The position numbers were made by a program, and so were the translations under genes. The notes under the pieces are model-generated. The model did not search any database. It was not told where the DNA came from and saw only the letters and a list, made by a program, of their open reading frames with translations. Below are positions 48,103-55,800 of a stretch of 63,979 nucleotides of DNA, piece by piece (positions within the stretch are counted from its first letter, which is position 1; every line of letters starts with the position of its first letter). The stretch covers positions 1 to 63,979 of the forward strand of contig JAJPXL010000079.1 of NCBI GenBank assembly GCA_021205455.1, read 5' to 3'. The stretch is from Clostridiales bacterium. GTDB lineage: Bacteria; Bacillota; Clostridia; Oscillospirales; Oscillospiraceae.

Positions 48103-51075
48103 ATGAGCCTTAGAATCGGTATCGACATCGGCTCCACCACCGTTAAGGTCGTGGTGCTGGATGAAGCGAACAAGCTTTTATTCCGCTCCTATGAGCGGCA
48201 CTATTCCAAAGTGCGGGAAAAGACCTGCGAAATATTGGAGCGGCCGGAGGTCCATTCCCTCCTGACCGGACAGCAGGTCCATATGGTCATCACCGGCTCC
48301 GCCGGTCTGGGCGTCTCCAAGGCCAGCGGGGTGGACTTCGTCCAGGAGGTCTACGCCACCGCCGCCGCTGTGGACACGTTTATCCCCGGCACCGACGCCG
48401 TCATTGAGCTGGGCGGCGAGGACGCCAAAATCATCTTTTTCGGCGGGGCGCTGGAGGAGCGGATGAACGGCTCCTGCGCGGGGGGCACCGGCGCGTTTAT
48501 CGACCAGATGGCCACCCTGATGAACGTCTCGGCGGACGAGCTGGACCGCCTCTCCCTGAAGCATGAGAAGATTTACCCCATCGCCTCCCGCTGCGGCGTC
48601 TTTGCCAAGAGCGACATCCAGCCCATCCTGAACCAGGGCGGGCGGAAGGAGGACGTGGCCGCCTCCATCTTCCAGGCCGTGGTGGACCAGACCATCGCCG
48701 GACTAACCCAGGGCCGGGAGCTGAAGGGCAAAATCGTCTTTCTCGGCGGCCCCCTTCACTTCCTGATGGGGCTGCGGGAGCGGTTCGTGGAGACCCTCCA
48801 GCTGGACGAGGCGCACGCCATCTTCCCGGAGGACGGCGACTGCTTCGCCGCCATCGGCGCGGCCCTCTGCGCCACCGACTATGAAGCCCACCTGTTTGAC
48901 GACCAGCTGAAAAAGCTGGAGGAGTCTCAGAACTCCGTTTCCAGCGTGGACACCGCCCCCGCCCTCTTTGAGAGCCAGGAGGAGTATGACGCCTTCTGCC
49001 AGCGGCACAACAGCCAGCATCCCCCGGTGTACGACATTGCCACCTACTCCGGCGACGCCTACCTGGGCATCGATGCAGGCTCCACCACCACCAAGCTGGC
49101 CCTCATCGCCCCGGACGGCGGACTGCTGTACACCTACTACCACTCCAACATGGGCAACCCGGTGTCCATCGTCCGGCAGGAGCTGACCAAGCTCTATGAG
49201 CTGATGGGCGACCGCATCACCATCAAGGGCAGCGCCGTCACCGGCTACGGCGAGGACTTAATCAAGAGCGCCTTCCGCTGCGACCTGGGGCTGGTGGAGA
49301 CCATGGCCCACTACAACGCCGCCGCCCACTTCAACCCGGAGGTGGACTTCATCATTGACATCGGCGGCCAGGACATGAAGTGCTTTAAGATCCGCAACGG
49401 CGCGGTGGACTCCATCATGCTGAACGAGGCCTGTTCCTCCGGCTGCGGCTCCTTCATTGAGACCTTCGCCCGGGCCCTGGGCTATGACATTGCCGACTTC
49501 GCCAAGCTGGGCCTGTTCACCAAGAAGCCGGTGAACCTGGGCTCCCGCTGCACGGTGTTTATGAACTCCTCCGTGAAGCAGGCCCAGAAGGACGGGGCCA
49601 GCGTGGAGGACATCTCCGCGGGCCTCTCCATCTCCATCGTGAAGAACGCCATTTATAAGGTGCTGCGGATGTCCTCCGCTGACGACCTGGGGCAGCATAT
49701 CGTTGTCCAGGGCGGCACCTTCTATAACGACGCCGTCCTCCGCGCCTTTGAGCAGGAGCTGGGGCGGGAGGTCGTCCGCCCCACCATCGCCGGCATCATG
49801 GGCGCCTTCGGCGCGGCCCTGGCGGCGAAGAAGCTGGCCCTGGAGAAGAGCAGCATCCTCTCCGCCGAGGAATTGCAGCACTTCCAGCACACCGCCAGGC
49901 CCGTCACCTGCAACGGCTGCACCAACCACTGCGCCCTGACCATCAACACCTTTGACGGCGGCCGCCGCTTCATCTCCGGCAACCGCTGCTCCAAGCCCCT
50001 GGGGGGCAAGAAGGTGCAGAACCCCGACCTGATGAAGTGGAAGTATGAAAAGCTCCGCACCATGCAGGGCAAGGGGGAGGGTACCGGCGTCCGGGGCCGC
50101 ATCGGCATCCCCTTCGGGCTGAATATGTATGAGAATCTGCCTTTCTGGTACGCCCTGCTGACCAGCCTGAACTTTGAGGTGGTGCTGTCCCCGGAGTCCA
50201 GCCGGAAGCTGTACATCAAGGGCCAGCGCACCATTCCCTCCGACACGGTGTGCTACCCCGCCAAGCTGCTCCACGGCCATGTGCTGGCCCTGCTGGAGGA
50301 GAATGTGGACGCCATCTTCTACCCCTGCATGAGCTACAACTTTGACGAGGGCACCAGCGACAATAACTATAACTGCCCCGTGGTGGCCTACTACCCCGAC
50401 CTGCTGGCGGCCAACATCCCCCAGCTGAAGGACACCCGGTTCTATCACCCCTACTTCGGCCTGCACCGGCCCAAGGACTTTGAAAAGCACGCCTCGGAGT
50501 TCTTCCTCCAGGAGTTCGACGTGCCCAAGAAGGAGACGGTGGCCGCCGTGCGGAAGGCGTATCAGGCCTATGACGACTATAAGAACGAGGTGCGGGGCAC
50601 CGGCCGGGAGTACATCGCCTATGCCCGGAAGCACGATATGCCCATCATGGTGGTGGCCGGCCGGCCCTATCATATGGACCCAGAGATCAATCACGGCATC
50701 AACGACCTGATTACCGGCTTCAACTTCGTCCTCATCACCGAGGATTCGGTGGCCTGGATGATGGATAAGCAGCCCCGCACCGTGCTGAACCAGTGGACCT
50801 ACCACTCCAGAATGTACAACGCCGCCCGCTACGTCTGCACCCAGGACGATATGCAGCTCATTCAGCTGGTCAGCTTCGGCTGCGGCGTGGACGCCATCAC
50901 CACGGACGAGATGCGCTCCATCCTGGAGGACGGTGGCAAGCTGTACACCCAGCTGAAAATTGACGACATCTCCAACCTGGGCGCTGTGAAAATCCGCGTC
51001 CGCTCCCTGATTGCGGCCATGGAGGCCAGAGACAGTGAGCAGGCGGAGGCCCAGGGGACGAAAAAAGCCGTCTGA
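48103..51075 (+). CDS. 2-hydroxyacyl-CoA dehydratase activase-related protein (large part)
   Basis: A 990-aa protein with two BadF/BcrA-type ASKHA ATPase domains, beginning IGIDIGSTTVKVVV (residue 4) and LGIDAGSTTTKLAL (about 324). Each has a cysteine for a bridging [4Fe-4S] cluster (NGSCAGGTGAF and ACSSGCGSF). A DUF2229 domain (about 660-950; IPSDTVCYPAKLLHGHV) follows. Such proteins are ATP-driven low-potential electron donors to 2-hydroxyacyl-CoA dehydratase-like enzymes. In many Clostridia this and the next gene form one polypeptide of about 1400 aa. Here they are two genes 62 nt apart. Confidence 0.9.
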   Translation: MSLRIGIDIGSTTVKVVVLDEANKLLFRSYERHYSKVREKTCEILERPEVHSLLTGQQVHMVITGSAGLGVSKASGVDFVQEVYATAAAVDTFIPGTDAVIELGGEDAKIIFFGGALEERMNGSCAGGTGAFIDQMATLMNVSADELDRLSLKHEKIYPIASRCGVFAKSDIQPILNQGGRKEDVAASIFQAVVDQTIAGLTQGRELKGKIVFLGGPLHFLMGLRERFVETLQLDEAHAIFPEDGDCFAAIGAALCATDYEAHLFDDQLKKLEESQNSVSSVDTAPALFESQEEYDAFCQRHNSQHPPVYDIATYSGDAYLGIDAGSTTTKLALIAPDGGLLYTYYHSNMGNPVSIVRQELTKLYELMGDRITIKGSAVTGYGEDLIKSAFRCDLGLVETMAHYNAAAHFNPEVDFIIDIGGQDMKCFKIRNGAVDSIMLNEACSSGCGSFIETFARALGYDIADFAKLGLFTKKPVNLGSRCTVFMNSSVKQAQKDGASVEDISAGLSISIVKNAIYKVLRMSSADDLGQHIVVQGGTFYNDAVLRAFEQELGREVVRPTIAGIMGAFGAALAAKKLALEKSSILSAEELQHFQHTARPVTCNGCTNHCALTINTFDGGRRFISGNRCSKPLGGKKVQNPDLMKWKYEKLRTMQGKGEGTGVRGRIGIPFGLNMYENLPFWYALLTSLNFEVVLSPESSRKLYIKGQRTIPSDTVCYPAKLLHGHVLALLEENVDAIFYPCMSYNFDEGTSDNNYNCPVVAYYPDLLAANIPQLKDTRFYHPYFGLHRPKDFEKHASEFFLQEFDVPKKETVAAVRKAYQAYDDYKNEVRGTGREYIAYARKHDMPIMVVAGRPYHMDPEINHGINDLITGFNFVLITEDSVAWMMDKQPRTVLNQWTYHSRMYNAARYVCTQDDMQLIQLVSFGCGVDAITTDEMRSILEDGGKLYTQLKIDDISNLGAVKIRVRSLIAAMEARDSEQAEAQGTKKAV

Positions 51076-51137
51076 CGGAACCGCTGCGCCGCCGGGCACG
51101 CCCCGGCTGGCGCACCCCAGGAAAGGATTTACCTACT

Positions 51138-52424
51138 ATGGCAGAACTTGTATATAACGAACAGGGCCGCCTCCTCTTCACTAAGGAGATGAAGGAGGAG
51201 TACACCATTCTGATGCCCCAGATGCTGCCCATTCACTTCAGTATGTTCCGCAAGCTGCTGGAGCTGGAGGGCTACCATGTGGACCAACTGAACAATGACA
51301 GCCGGAACGTGGTGGACGAGGGGCTGAAATACGTCCACAACGACACCTGCTACCCCGCCCTGCTGGTCATCGGCCAGTTTATGGACGCCATCAAGAACGG
51401 CGGCTACGACCCCCATAAGGTGGCGCTGTTCATCACCCAGACCGGCGGCGGCTGCCGGGCCTCCAACTACATCCACCTGCTCCGCAAGGCACTGAAAAAG
51501 GCGGGGATGGACTATATCCCCGTCATCTCCGTCAGCTTCGGCATGGAGTCCAACCCCGGCTTCTCCCTGACCATCCCGCTGATTCAGAAGCTGATTTACG
51601 GCATGATGTATGGCGACATCATCATGAACGTGGCCAACCAGGTGCGGCCCTATGAGCTGCAAAAGGGGGACACCGACAAGATGGTCACCACCTGGGTGGA
51701 CCGCCTGGTGGACCGCTTCACCCGCGGCCAGGGCATGAGCCGGAAGGCCATGCGCCAGGGCTTTGACGAGATCATCGCCGACTTCGCCGCCATTCCGGTG
51801 GATTTGAGCCAGGAGAAGATCCGCGTCGGTGTGGTGGGGGAGATTTATGTGAAATTCTCCGCCCTGGGCAACAACCACCTGGAGGACTTCCTCCTGTCCG
51901 AGGGGACGGAGCCGGTGGTGCCCGGCCTGACCGATTTTATGATTTTCAAAATCTTCAACCGGGTCAGCGACTACAATATCTACGGCGGCTCCCTCGCCAC
52001 GAAGGAGGTCTGCGCCTTCTTCATGGGCTACATTGAGAAGTGCCAGCACGACATGATCGACGCCCTGGAGAAGTCCGGTCGGTTCCGCGCCCCCGGCGAC
52101 TTCGCCCAGCTGCGGGAACTTGCCAAGGACTATCTGGGCGAGGGCTGCAAAATGGGCGAGGGCTGGCTGCTCACCGCCGAAATGCTGGAACTGATTCACT
52201 CCGGCACCAACAACATCGTCTGCACGCAGCCCTTCGGCTGCCTGCCCAACCACATCGTGGGCAAGGGCATGATTCGCGCTTTGAAGGACAACTATCCGGA
52301 GTCCAACATCGTCGCCATCGACTACGACCCCTCCGCCACCAAAATCAATCAGGAGAACCGCATCAAGCTGATGCTGGCCAACGGCAAGGCCATGGCCAAG
52401 AAACGGCAGGCCCAGGCCGTCTGA
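51138..52424 (+). CDS. 2-hydroxyacyl-CoA dehydratase-like protein (small part)
   Basis: A 428-aa protein corresponding to the C-terminal part of the fused activase/dehydratase proteins. Cys-containing motifs DTCYPALLVIGQF (about residue 73), GGGCRASNYI (about 107) and CTQPFGCLPNHIVGKG (about 362) could ligate an iron-sulfur cluster. It starts 62 nt after the activase, with a GGAAAGGATTTACCTACT leader. Its last 24 codons are duplicated downstream (52351-52718). Physiological substrate unknown. Confidence 0.9.
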   Translation: MAELVYNEQGRLLFTKEMKEEYTILMPQMLPIHFSMFRKLLELEGYHVDQLNNDSRNVVDEGLKYVHNDTCYPALLVIGQFMDAIKNGGYDPHKVALFITQTGGGCRASNYIHLLRKALKKAGMDYIPVISVSFGMESNPGFSLTIPLIQKLIYGMMYGDIIMNVANQVRPYELQKGDTDKMVTTWVDRLVDRFTRGQGMSRKAMRQGFDEIIADFAAIPVDLSQEKIRVGVVGEIYVKFSALGNNHLEDFLLSEGTEPVVPGLTDFMIFKIFNRVSDYNIYGGSLATKEVCAFFMGYIEKCQHDMIDALEKSGRFRAPGDFAQLRELAKDYLGEGCKMGEGWLLTAEMLELIHSGTNNIVCTQPFGCLPNHIVGKGMIRALKDNYPESNIVAIDYDPSATKINQENRIKLMLANGKAMAKKRQAQAV

Positions 52425-52428
52425 GGAA

Positions 52429-52506
52429 GGTTCTCCTGCAAGGAGGCACCTGCCCCCGGCAGGTGCGGAGACCGCAGGCGAACCCTGCGGGTTCTACAGG
52501 AGAACC
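52429..52506 (+). repeat. Cloverleaf-like inverted-repeat element, copy 1
   Basis: An outer 10-bp stem GGTTCTCCTG/CAGGAGAACC encloses two perfect hairpins: GCACCTGCC-CCC-GGCAGGTGC (52446-52466) and CCGCAGG-N5-CCTGCGG (52472-52490). The same element recurs at 52576-52653. No T run follows, so it is not a standard terminator. Confidence 0.8.
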
Positions 52507-52575
52507 GCATTAAGCTGATGCTGGCCAACGGCAAGGCCATGGCCAAGAAGCGGCAGGCCCAGGCCGTCTGAGGAA

Positions 52576-52653
52576 GGTTCTCCTGCAAGGAGGCACCTGC
52601 CCCCGGCAGGTGCGGAGACCGCAGGCGAACCCTGCGGGTTCTACAGGAGAACC
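52576..52653 (+). repeat. Cloverleaf-like inverted-repeat element, copy 2
   Basis: Identical to the element at 52429-52506, 147 nt downstream. Confidence 0.8.
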
Positions 52654-52736
52654 GCATTAAGCTGATGCTGGCCAACGGCAAGGCCATGGCCAAGAAGCGG
52701 CAGGCCCAGGCCGTCTGAGTTGTCATTTACCGTCTG

Positions 52737-53041: not shown

Positions 53042-53173
53042 TCAATAACGGTGATAGTTGCGTTCGTTGCTGTAGGCCAGGGCGTCAAAGGCGTCCTGAT
53101 GCCGTCCGGCGAATTCATTGAAGCGCTCCGTCAGGCTCTTCTTCCGCTTGGTTTCCATATTGTTATTGTTCAT
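53042..53173 (-). CDS. Small basic protein A, unknown family
   Basis: A 43-aa protein, last of a four-gene operon. ATG 53173 follows AAGGAGTGAACTGACA. The N-terminus MNNNNMETKRKKS is polar and basic; the rest (LTERFNEFAGRH... and ...LAYSNERNYHRY) resembles the neighbours in having an R-F core, an Asp/Ala-Leu helix and an aromatic, Arg/Tyr-ending tail. No signal peptide or membrane segment. Function unknown. Confidence 0.75.
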   Translation of the reverse strand: MNNNNMETKRKKSLTERFNEFAGRHQDAFDALAYSNERNYHRY

Positions 53174-53203
53174 TGTCAGTTCACTCCTTATTGTGGGGTC
53201 GGC

Positions 53204-53320
53204 TCAGCGGAAGCTGCGGTTGTAGGCTTCACACGCCTGGCCAATTTCAGGGTGCTTTTCCAGATAGTCGCAAAAGCGGTCCATCAGGTTCTTCTTTTCC
53301 TTATATTCACGGTTTTTCAT
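53204..53320 (-). CDS. Small basic protein B, unknown family
   Basis: A 38-aa protein beginning MKNREYKEKKNLMDRF and ending EIGQACEAYNRSFR. ATG 53320 follows ATAAGGAGTAAATTATC. It is closest to protein D: both have RF-xx-Y-x-EKH, PEIG and YN at matching positions. It contains two cysteines. The gap to the next gene is 30 nt. Confidence 0.78.
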   Translation of the reverse strand: MKNREYKEKKNLMDRFCDYLEKHPEIGQACEAYNRSFR

Positions 53321-53376
53321 GATAATTTACTCCTTATATGAGATAGATTTGGTATTGATTGGGGGAACGCTGCCGC

Positions 53377-53493
53377 TCAGTGCTGGCAGTAGTTCCACTC
53401 GTCAAAGTAGCGCAGAGCCTCGAAGAAGTTGGGATAGCGCTCTACAAAGCTGCCCTTCTTCTCGGTTTCCTGCTTCAGTTCACGATTCTTCAT
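53377..53493 (-). CDS. Small protein C, unknown family
   Basis: A 38-aa protein beginning MKNRELKQETEKKGSF and ending EALRYFDEWNYCQH. ATG 53493 follows ATAAGGAGTGAATTGTG, nearly the same leader as protein B. It shares MKNRE and the aromatic tail with the family but is less basic at the C-terminus. Confidence 0.78.
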   Translation of the reverse strand: MKNRELKQETEKKGSFVERYPNFFEALRYFDEWNYCQH

Positions 53494-53671
53494 CACAATT
53501 CACTCCTTATATGATGCTGTCGATCGGTTTCCTTCGCGGGGGCGGCTGCACCTCGCCTCAAGCCGTCTATAGGGTACCGACGGTTCCGGCTGATATGGTG
53601 CCGGGCCAGGCTGTTCCCCGCTGCACGGTAGTCGATGTCGAAGCGCTACAGTTCTATATGGGATGGCGGGT

Positions 53672-53800
53672 TCAATACCTCTGAAAGGTCCGCCAGTTAT
53701 AGAGGGCAAGCGCATCACCGATTTCCGGCAAATGCTTCTCCATGTAGCTGGAAAAGCGGCCTGCAAAGCCTTGCTGCTGTTTCTTGTCTCGAATCTCCAT
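53672..53800 (-). CDS. Small protein D, unknown family
   Basis: A 42-aa protein, first of the four-gene operon. It begins MEIRDKKQQQGFAGRF and ends YNWRTFQRY, with MEKHLPEIGDALALY in the middle, matching protein B. ATG 53800 follows AAAGGAGTGACGCATTG. Its promoter lies about 93 nt upstream. The 178-nt gap to protein C holds no further frame with a ribosome site. Confidence 0.78.
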   Translation of the reverse strand: MEIRDKKQQQGFAGRFSSYMEKHLPEIGDALALYNWRTFQRY

Positions 53801-53872
53801 CAATGCGTCACTCCTTTAATTTGATTTCAGATCCGGCCATCTGCGATTGCTATATGGCCGTTGGTTTTTGCT

Positions 53873-53963
53873 GTTACCGTGTACCCTTACGGTGACTATA
53901 GTATAGCACGTCTGCCCCGCTGGGAAAAGGTACCTGGTTATCCTCTTTTAGGTCAATATTGAC
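53873..53963 (-). promoter_or_regulatory. Promoter region of the four-gene small-protein operon
   Basis: On the minus strand, -10 TATACT (53905-53900) with no good -35 hexamer. A perfect palindrome, GTCAATATTGAC (53952-53963), lies exactly 46 nt upstream of the -10. Downstream of the start is an inverted repeat, GTTACCGT-N8-ACGGTGAC (53873-53896, one mismatch). The poor -35 suggests activator dependence. Confidence 0.65.
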
Positions 53964-54114
53964 TTTTCTTGCAGGATTTGTACATAGAATATTCATTTTT
54001 GGCGCTGTGCGCAGGCAGCTCTCCGGACGTTCCGCCCCTTGCTTGAACGAAAACCTGTTCTCCGTTGCAGCTGTTTCTATGCTCTGTGCCGCCATTGCCG
54101 GAAAACGGGAAAAC

Positions 54115-54141
54115 CAGGACCGCGCAAAGCGCGATCCTGGT
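54115..54141 (-). terminator. Possible terminator of small gene E
   Basis: CCAGGA(c)CGCGC-AAA-GCGCG(a)TCCTGG, followed on the minus strand by TTTTCCCGTTTTCC. It lies 270 nt past the gene. Between them are two exact 21-bp direct repeats (54162-54182 and 54281-54301) and a GCCGCC/GGCGGC hairpin. Nothing else is recognised in 53801-54407. Confidence 0.5.
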
Positions 54142-54407
54142 TCCCGAAGAAAAAGGAAAAAGAAAAAAGGGAAAACGCAAATCTATATGGAAACGGGCGG
54201 TGAACAGGGGCGTTCCCGCCCTGGTGGGTCCCCTCCCTCAGCGGAGCCGCCCTCAGGCGGCCCCGCCTACGAAAAGAGGAGAAAAAAGGGAAAACGCAAA
54301 TTCAATAGGCCAGCCCAGCCCACTTGGGCAGGTCGCTGCGGTGTCCACCCCGCCGCACCCGAAGGGCGCTGCCGGAGGTGCAAAGGCTGCGATATCCAGG
54401 GAAGCGT

Positions 54408-54533
54408 TTAGCGCACATAGCGGTATTCCTTGGTGCGGGGGGTCGTATCGCAGTAGATGTCGTCCATCAAACGGTCAGTCAAAGCTACTTTCTTACCAAA
54501 GATGGACAGCTTCTGGTTGTGATTCTTTTTCAT
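54408..54533 (-). CDS. Small basic protein E
   Basis: A 41-aa protein beginning MKKNHNQKLSIFGKK and ending TPRTKEYRYVR. ATG 54533 lies 11 nt after AAAGGAG. An in-frame ATG at 54683 (AAAGGA upstream, 91 aa) is possible, but the added segment looks non-coding. It is like the four proteins downstream in size, charge and aromatic/Arg tail, but without clear sequence identity. It has its own promoter with the same palindrome as the four-gene operon. Confidence 0.68.
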   Translation of the reverse strand: MKKNHNQKLSIFGKKVALTDRLMDDIYCDTTPRTKEYRYVR

Positions 54534-54704: not shown

Positions 54705-54768
54705 ATGATACCACGGCCGTTGTTCCCTGCCAAGGCGGGTTTTTAGCCTTTTTATGGTCGATATTGAC
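54705..54768 (-). promoter_or_regulatory. Promoter of small gene E
   Basis: On the minus strand, TTGGCA (54733-54728), 17-nt spacer, TATCAT (54710-54705). GTCGATATTGAC (54757-54768) lies exactly 46 nt upstream of the -10, as at the other small-protein promoter, and is likewise followed by an A-rich stretch. Confidence 0.7.
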
Positions 54769-54948: not shown

Positions 54949-55800
54949 ATGGATCATTATTTCCACGAAAACCTGAAAGAAGCGGGAGAAAAGGGATTCA
55001 AAATCGATTTTTTGGAAGGGACCCCTTTCTATTACCCCGCCCATTGGCACTACGCGCTGGAGCTTCTGTTCTGCACGAAAGGGTTTATTTTCGTGAAGGT
55101 AGGCGACGGCGAACCCATGACGGCCCACACCCAGCAGCTGTTCCTGCTGAACACCATGACCATTCACGAGTCCTGGAGCCATGAGGAATATGAGGGCTTC
55201 TGCATCCACCTCTTCCCCGATGACATGAAGCAATACGTCCCCACCTTTGACAAGCTGCGCTTTTCCCTGTCCTTTTCCTCCAACGACCTGGAGCGGGCCA
55301 AGGCCATGAGCCGCATCAACGCCAACATGATGCAGATCGCCCTGCTGCACCAGGAGCAGCCGGAGGGCTATCTGCCGGAGTGCGCCGCCCTGGTCTACAG
55401 CACCACCCAGGTGCTGGTGCAGCACTTCTCTCACCCCCTGGTGGAGGAGGAGGCAAAGACCGTTCAGACCGGCATCGCCCGCCTGAAGCCGCTGCTGGAT
55501 TACATCGACCTCCATCACGCAGAGGAGCTGACCCTGGACGGGGCGGCGGACTATATGGGGGTCACCAAGGAATACTTCTGCCGACTGTTCAAGAAGAACA
55601 TGGGGGTCTCCCTGACCCGATATGTGAACAGCGTGCGCATCGCCCATATCTGTGAGGAGATGAAATACTCCGACCTGACCATCTCCGAGCTGGCGGAGAA
55701 GCACGGCTTCGCCAACACGAAGCTGATGAACCAGATGTTCCGGGAGATCTACGGCTGCACCCCCTCCCAAAAGCGCAAGGAACTGGCCTCCTCCGGATAA
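54949..55800 (+). CDS. AraC-family regulator with cupin sensor
   Basis: A 283-aa transcription factor. The N-terminal cupin-like domain (about 20-100) contains PAHWHYALELLFCTKG, typical of AraC sensors. The C-terminal double HTH (about 180-280) includes DGAADYMGVTKEYFCRLFKKNMG and ISELAEKHGFANTKLMNQMFREIYGCTPSQKR. AAAGGAGG precedes ATG 54949. It stands alone, divergent from the small-protein cluster, and is the closest candidate to act at the palindromes there, although AraC sites are usually direct repeats. Confidence 0.93.
   Translation: MDHYFHENLKEAGEKGFKIDFLEGTPFYYPAHWHYALELLFCTKGFIFVKVGDGEPMTAHTQQLFLLNTMTIHESWSHEEYEGFCIHLFPDDMKQYVPTFDKLRFSLSFSSNDLERAKAMSRINANMMQIALLHQEQPEGYLPECAALVYSTTQVLVQHFSHPLVEEEAKTVQTGIARLKPLLDYIDLHHAEELTLDGAADYMGVTKEYFCRLFKKNMGVSLTRYVNSVRIAHICEEMKYSDLTISELAEKHGFANTKLMNQMFREIYGCTPSQKRKELASSG

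Follow-up and report, generated by a model that had tools for sequence, protein, structure and literature searches.

The five short genes P1 to P5 in the window (the whole 63,979-nucleotide stretch of DNA analysed here) are read from sequence as an array of cytoplasmic, helical microproteins forming the output of a signal-responsive AraC-family activator, a reading given roughly an even chance of being correct. The promoter layout points strongly to an AraC protein that binds two half-sites and activates both the P1 unit and the P2–P5 unit; it points weakly to the microproteins as the output of the switch and not its accessories, and they are taken as the output because the searchable regulon consists of the peptides themselves. 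The original prediction had proposed selection for several related peptides, serving as regulators, toxins or binding microproteins; real microproteins kept as several related peptides are upheld, what it had overlooked are the AraC regulator and the shared operator-promoter, and these are more informative about the system than the peptides by themselves.

Five short genes and their transcription units

The genes are numbered in transcription order; A to D of the original prediction apparently correspond to P5, P4, P3 and P2, and its E to P1. The locus comprises the following features.

54949..55800, plus strand: AraC-family regulator, 283 aa, with AraC_binding and HTH_18 domains, divergent from P1
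54408..54533, minus strand: P1, 41-aa microprotein, probably its own transcription unit
54112..54142, minus strand: hairpin followed by a T-rich stretch between P1 and P2, seen in the species alignment and absent from the terminator-scan list
53672..53800, minus strand: P2, 42-aa microprotein, opening a four-gene unit
53377..53493, minus strand: P3, 38-aa microprotein, with an in-frame GTG at 53496
53204..53320, minus strand: P4, 38-aa microprotein
53042..53173, minus strand: P5, 43-aa microprotein, with the strongest codon-level constraint among P1–P5
52917-52890, minus strand: terminator after P5 from the terminator scan, a 12-pair hairpin with a T run, closing the P2–P5 unit
48103-52424, convergent: CoA-dehydratase activase gene and a related gene (Pfam/NCBIfam)

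The five minus-strand frames of 38–43 aa lie where they had been placed, each with an AAGGAGT-type ribosome site ahead of it, and the strong terminator claimed to close a four-gene unit was recovered as well. An in-frame ATG lies 9 bases upstream of P1 (54542) and is kept in 7/7 of the genomes that carry the locus. P1 is probably a transcription unit separate from P2–P5, since it has its own promoter and is followed by the hairpin and T-rich stretch before P2; one stem pair of this hairpin is swapped from G-C to C-G between species.

Judged by comparison among genomes, P1–P5 are real, conserved genes. All five are intact and in unchanged order in seven of the 32 genus genomes. A P2–P5 profile search recovered all four genes in 7/32 and none in the remaining 25, two of which gave lone weak matches (E ~0.06–0.08) within long frames; P1, whose profile search covered 350 family genomes and not all 32 of the genus, was seen in the same seven carriers. 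Every carrier locus has the order activase-like gene, P5–P1, AraC gene, and the lengths are narrowly held at 41 aa for P1, 41–42 for P2, 38 for P3, 38 for P4 and 41–43 for P5.

The proposed check for homologues under codon-level constraint thus had a divided outcome: frame-conserved homologues exist in 7/32 genomes, whereas constraint on P2–P4 taken individually is weak or absent. Mean dN/dS values for P1 to P5 are 0.23, 0.50, 0.37, 0.25 and 0.13, respectively (NG86, 21 pairs each). Under a stricter codon test, in which every change is relocated at random to provide the null for synonymous excess, the excess is clear for P5 (21/37 changes against 8.5 at random, p 0.0002), weak for P1 (10/21, p 0.03), weak to marginal for P4 (12/30, p 0.07, more exactly 0.066) and absent for P2 (9/30, p 0.31) and P3 (7/26, p 0.49); the case for P2 and P3 therefore leans on frame conservation, start site and paralogy. 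On the opposite strand, none of five antisense ORFs tested is stop-free in all six other carriers: the one at 53051-53341 is stop-free in 5/6, the one at 53635-53895 in 4/6 and the other three in 1/6 each, and their lengths mostly shift by non-multiples of three between carriers.

Sequence family and physical character

By profile comparison P2–P5 are one paralogous family, so that the claim of at least two clear paralogues can be widened to four: leave-one-out HMMs built from three of them rank the fourth above every other of the 1058 window ORFs (E 8e-9 for P2, 1e-3 for P3, 2e-10 for P4 and 4e-7 for P5), and the resemblance claimed between A and C (P5 and P3) is found at E 2e-4. The P2–P5 HMM does not recover P1 among these 1058 ORFs, and P1 is no detectable relative of the four. 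The view that the peptides belong to no recognised family holds. Pfam gives no match for P1–P5; NCBIfam, which presumably includes an ANR model, gives none at E up to 1 except a stray MobP3 match to P4 (E 0.078); and a PADLOC and defence-gene search gives no match that explains them. A phage origin finds no support: viral-contig scans with alignments of each of P1–P5, and with the peptides of the second array described below, returned no relatives, and the PHROGs matches of P1–P5 reach only E 0.027 or weaker.

All five peptides are strongly hydrophilic, with GRAVY values from -0.95 to -1.63, and contain amphipathic stretches (moment 0.41–0.52); four of them are basic. They were said to lack membrane segments and any adjoining modification enzyme or exporter, and this is borne out: the highest 19-residue hydropathy is 0.27, and the neighbours identified by Pfam/NCBIfam, which besides the activase genes are the AraC regulator, an NCS2 permease, an XRE-cupin regulator and an esterase, include no peptide exporter, immunity gene or modification enzyme. 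The structure model of P2 is a single helix spanning residues 3–41 (pLDDT 77); that of P1 is also one helix, at low confidence (pLDDT 56).

These properties bear on the alternative that the peptides are exported signals or antimicrobials under AraC control, be they leaderless, PSM-like or multi-peptide bacteriocins. Short paralogues (38–43 aa) encoded in tandem, with amphipathic stretches and no leader, would fit such a role, and known leaderless bacteriocins occur in such sets; however, the strong hydrophilicity, a search of the neighbours that turned up no gene for export, immunity or modification, and a copy number fixed in 7/7 carriers make export quite unlikely.

A shared operator-promoter layout

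The regulator divergent from P1 belongs to the AraC family by its two-HTH DNA-binding domain (HTH_18 at 67 bits vs a cut-off of 33.6, AraC_binding at 26.7 vs 21.1). It is present in the same seven carriers at 94–100% identity, although in G160 the contig breaks off after the first 125 residues; among the 25 non-carriers only G153 has a match at E up to 1e-60, with 48% identity. Searches of 350 family and 316 class genomes returned only G000, two congeners and G952, at thresholds of 1e-55 and 1e-50 that would miss the third AraC group described below (best 6e-49) and with at most seven candidates scored per genome. G952, a member of another family of the class found in the class-wide search, has a homologue at E 3e-54 that is 30% identical.

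Upstream of the two peptide units, the following elements were assigned.

54734..54768, minus strand: predicted P1 operator, GTCAATATCGACC and a degenerate second half-site 21 bp on
54705..54733, minus strand: P1 promoter TTGGCA-17-TATCAT, from the consensus promoter scan and the layout
53929..53963, minus strand: predicted P2–P5 operator, GTCAATATTGACC and a degenerate second half-site
53900..53928, minus strand: P2–P5 promoter TTTTCC-17-TATACT with a poor -35 box, from the shared layout and missed by the consensus scan

Both peptide promoters contain GTCAATAT, starting 35 bp before the -35 box and 58 bp before the -10 box, and the P1, P2, G153 and G952 promoters align at this element without gaps, with -35 at +35 and -10 at +58. 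A second GTCAAT half-site follows 21 bp downstream; G153 and G952 have it in clear form, and the window has a degenerate version. In G153 the same site lies between its AraC homologue and a divergent 27-aa ORF that has a strong ribosome site and a terminator; in G952 it precedes a divergent 70-aa ORF beside the AraC gene, and each of these two ORFs is represented by one genome. The motif scores 29.5 bits in G153 and 21.1 bits in G952 vs maxima of 1.4 and 3.6 over 200 shuffles, and it stays at noise level upstream of nine AraC genes used as controls, drawn from 12 that were inspected. No consistent pattern of short ORFs emerged ahead of the 12 other AraC homologues from the genus; at four of these 12 loci (L130, L133, L134 and L135), the operator is found downstream instead. 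Beside the site, the -35 boxes TTTTCC, TTTTTG and TTCGCC are poor and TTGGCA of P1 is better; poor -35 boxes in this position would suit an activator.

When up to two mismatches are allowed, the 15-bp core has nine hits at eight places in the genome that holds the window. Six of these places lie outside the peptide promoters, one close to the end of a contig and five within frames of at least 100 aa. None of the six exceeds 8.6 bits when scored by the full operator-promoter profile, vs more than 51 for the peptide promoters; the peptides therefore look like the regulon, in a pattern search that would overlook weak sites. As an aside, among the five in-frame places one is read here as the final part of a DUF362-like gene and one as an apparent CRISPR array. 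A CRISPR-like repeat, GTCGCTCCCCGC...GTGGATTGAAAT, gives a chance match to the operator pattern around position 1500 of locus L011 (contig C156 of the same genome).

Across the family, the 21-bp operator pattern with up to two mismatches yields 28 sites in 25 of 350 genomes, compared with 11 for the reversed control, and for the 22 sites that fall beyond the genus, the surrounding ~3 kb or less contains no homologue of the window AraC. The operator as a general family site was consequently not adopted: most extra-genus sites are treated as chance, and some could be real.

RNA features of the transcripts

Two hairpins of the P2 unit have loops that are invariant in seven species.

53876..53893, minus strand: hairpin in the 5' UTR of the P2 unit, loop AAGGGTAC
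53562..53584, minus strand: hairpin-like sequence between P2 and P3, loop GGTACCCTATA, speculative

Seven nucleotides of one loop are complementary to the other (AGGGUAC/GUACCCU); a kissing interaction within the P2 transcript was nevertheless set aside, as the stem at 53562..53584 is absent from the minimum-energy fold and the loops offer no variation to test. The P1 3' region (54112-54407, minus strand) is conserved over ~300 nt, contains several hairpins as well as a GCGTTTTCCC-T-rich sequence that recurs, and could yield a small RNA.

It might be argued that the transcripts matter as RNA, through structured UTRs or small RNAs, and that the ORFs are secondary. The conserved hairpins downstream of P1, the complementary invariant loops and the lack of synonymous excess in P2 and P3 would agree with this, but the transcript regions have no Rfam match at E up to 1, one of the two loops has no stem in the best fold, and the frames are intact in 7/7 species and paralogous at the protein level, which leaves an RNA role in this sense very improbable.

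Distribution and neighbourhood

No convincing peptide homologue outside the genus was found in 150 family and 345 order genomes or, for P1, in 350 family genomes. The family search matched three genomes at E up to 0.01, and its sole extra-genus match, G132 (E 0.003), was discarded for an in-frame stop; the order search matched two, and the extra-genus match in G418 was discarded for falling inside a 333-aa frame. The P1 model gave three matches, all within the genus. When genomes are ranked by the 428-aa activase-like neighbour, the seven carriers come out closest (96–100% identity, the next being 91%); in G167, G162, G154 and G046 another gene comes after it, and in G152 the contig stops where the following gene begins. 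This distribution suits a single gain of the locus in an ancestor of the seven carriers.

Separately, the end of this 428-aa CoA-activase-like gene is followed by two tandem units (52348-52718, plus strand), each combining a short structured element with a repeated copy of the final part of the gene. The element has the ends GGTTCTCCTG...CAGGAGAACC, two internal hairpins and no Rfam match; a similar element with different hairpin bases follows the same gene in G151 and G153, and none of this type is present in the stretch read from G134.

A second array near a third AraC group

A profile of the site plus the -10 box was scanned over 683 kb of loci biased to these neighbourhoods. It returned 20 distinct sites of at least 32 bits, 16 of which are the training set and four new; the maximum of a single mononucleotide shuffle, which served as the null, was 10, and the next-best real site scored 16.8. 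The four new sites (33–39 bits) come from four more species, G154, G162, G164 and G166, and precede convergent operons of up to five 40–43-aa ORFs near a third AraC group, which is 64% identical to the G952 protein and ~28% identical to the window AraC. In the three measurable cases the site is ~1–1.2 kb beyond the end of the AraC gene.

The array comprises four 43-aa paralogues and one 40-aa ORF in G164, and three 43-aa paralogues, two of them encoding identical proteins, and one 40-aa ORF in G162. The arrays of G154 and G166 are partly masked by N runs, G167 has the end of such an array with the promoter off the contig, and G152 has the third-group AraC only, at a contig end. Copy number thus differs between species, a point in favour of export; on the other side, ORFs judged by eye show no exporter, immunity or modification gene adjoining the G164 array. 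Three of the second-array ORFs were searched in Pfam and NCBIfam with no match, and codon-level support is modest (p 0.02 for the first gene and 0.09–0.28 for the others, one of these tests being between two paralogues). In one locus (L148, 3678-7300), the third-group AraC directly follows a gene read as ribonuclease Y, with the microprotein operon convergent.

The second-array peptides have no significant similarity to P2–P5, with HMM cross-hits at noise, and homology between the two sets is not claimed on an hhalign probability of 6% (E 0.006). An F-x-x-[YF] stretch in that alignment is suggestive.

The main rival to the microproteins as output is an ANR-like feedback, in which AraC switches the microproteins on and they in turn bind and restrain AraC. 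AraC and short ORFs are linked in several lineages, as this would have it, and ANR proteins are described as 39–80 aa long, with orf60 transcription impaired in an aggR mutant (PMC4038620). However, pure feedback would leave no output if the regulon is these peptides only, P1–P5 have no ANR-type match, and four or five different peptides exceed the need for one partner. Nor do the peptides follow the sensor, since the sensor regions of the G952 and G164 AraC proteins are 60% identical and yet their peptides are unrelated by HMM, the second-array model failing to rank the G952 peptide above decoys; the idea that microproteins track the AraC sensor domain was dropped accordingly. Feedback of this kind is regarded as rather doubtful.

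Proposed mechanism and significance

The switch would probably work as follows. The AraC protein has an N-terminal, cupin-like AraC_binding domain and so should sense a small ligand; once bound to it, the protein would occupy the two half-sites (a GTCAATAT repeat with 21-bp spacing) that adjoin a weak -35 box, and from there raise transcription of P1 and P2–P5. The microproteins would be short amphipathic helices that remain cytoplasmic and act by binding at least one partner protein, with the work shared out among the paralogues. The co-occurrence of P2–P5 and the window AraC in 7/32 genus genomes counts for this reading; the degenerate second half-site in the window, the poor P1 model, the lack of synonymous excess in P2 and P3, and the lack of detectable homology among microproteins beside different AraC groups count against it.

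A broader proposal, made tentatively and with rather less than an even chance, is that these loci form a class of module in which an AraC sensor and a conserved direct-repeat promoter have fast-diverging cytoplasmic microproteins, often in arrays, as their sole output, the switch persisting as its effectors are replaced. Its members would include at least four sets of microproteins, namely P1–P5, the 27-aa ORF of G153, the 70-aa ORF of G952 and the 40–43-aa arrays of G154, G162, G164, G166 and probably G167.

Bacterial microproteins mostly enter catalogues with no context attached. In this case, the promoter layout links several sets that have no detectable likeness to one another to one sensor class, and GTCAATAT-N13-GTCAAT ending just before the -35 box provides a handle for finding more. 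If the effectors do turn over while the switch stays, the modules would be a natural system for studying the origin and replacement of tiny proteins.

Comparison with known systems

An AraC switch with arrays of cytoplasmic microproteins was not found described in the literature searched, which is thin on subscription journals. Its components are known separately: tandem leaderless peptides are familiar, as are AraC regulators, and small proteins tied to an AraC activator are described in PMC4038620. The latter are the ANR proteins (AraC negative regulators, Aar/orf60 in enteroaggregative E. coli), which act on AggR and Rns. They come from Gram-negative bacteria, are predicted to form three helices and contain a conserved Cys (PMC4038620). 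The likeness lies in small proteins tied to an AraC-family activator. The operator and promoter layout, predicted from sequence, would be compatible with AraC-dependent transcription of the ANR type. The present peptides differ in showing no sequence match, in having up to five tandem genes, and in a one-helix model for P2 and, at low confidence, for P1 in place of three helices.

Multi-peptide leaderless bacteriocins and phenol-soluble modulins are tandem paralogous peptides of ~20–50 aa with no leader and one regulator. The present peptides share the tandem, paralogous and leaderless arrangement under what is probably one regulator, but they are hydrophilic, and their searched neighbours include no exporter or immunity gene. 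A role as RiPP precursors likewise finds no support, no modification enzyme being among these neighbours.

AraC-family regulators with direct-repeat sites beside the -35 box, as in araI1-I2 with its 21-bp spacing, offer the remaining comparison. HTH_18 and AraC_binding domains and half-sites 21 bp apart beside -35 are common to both; the targets there are enzymes and transporters, whereas here they would be microproteins.
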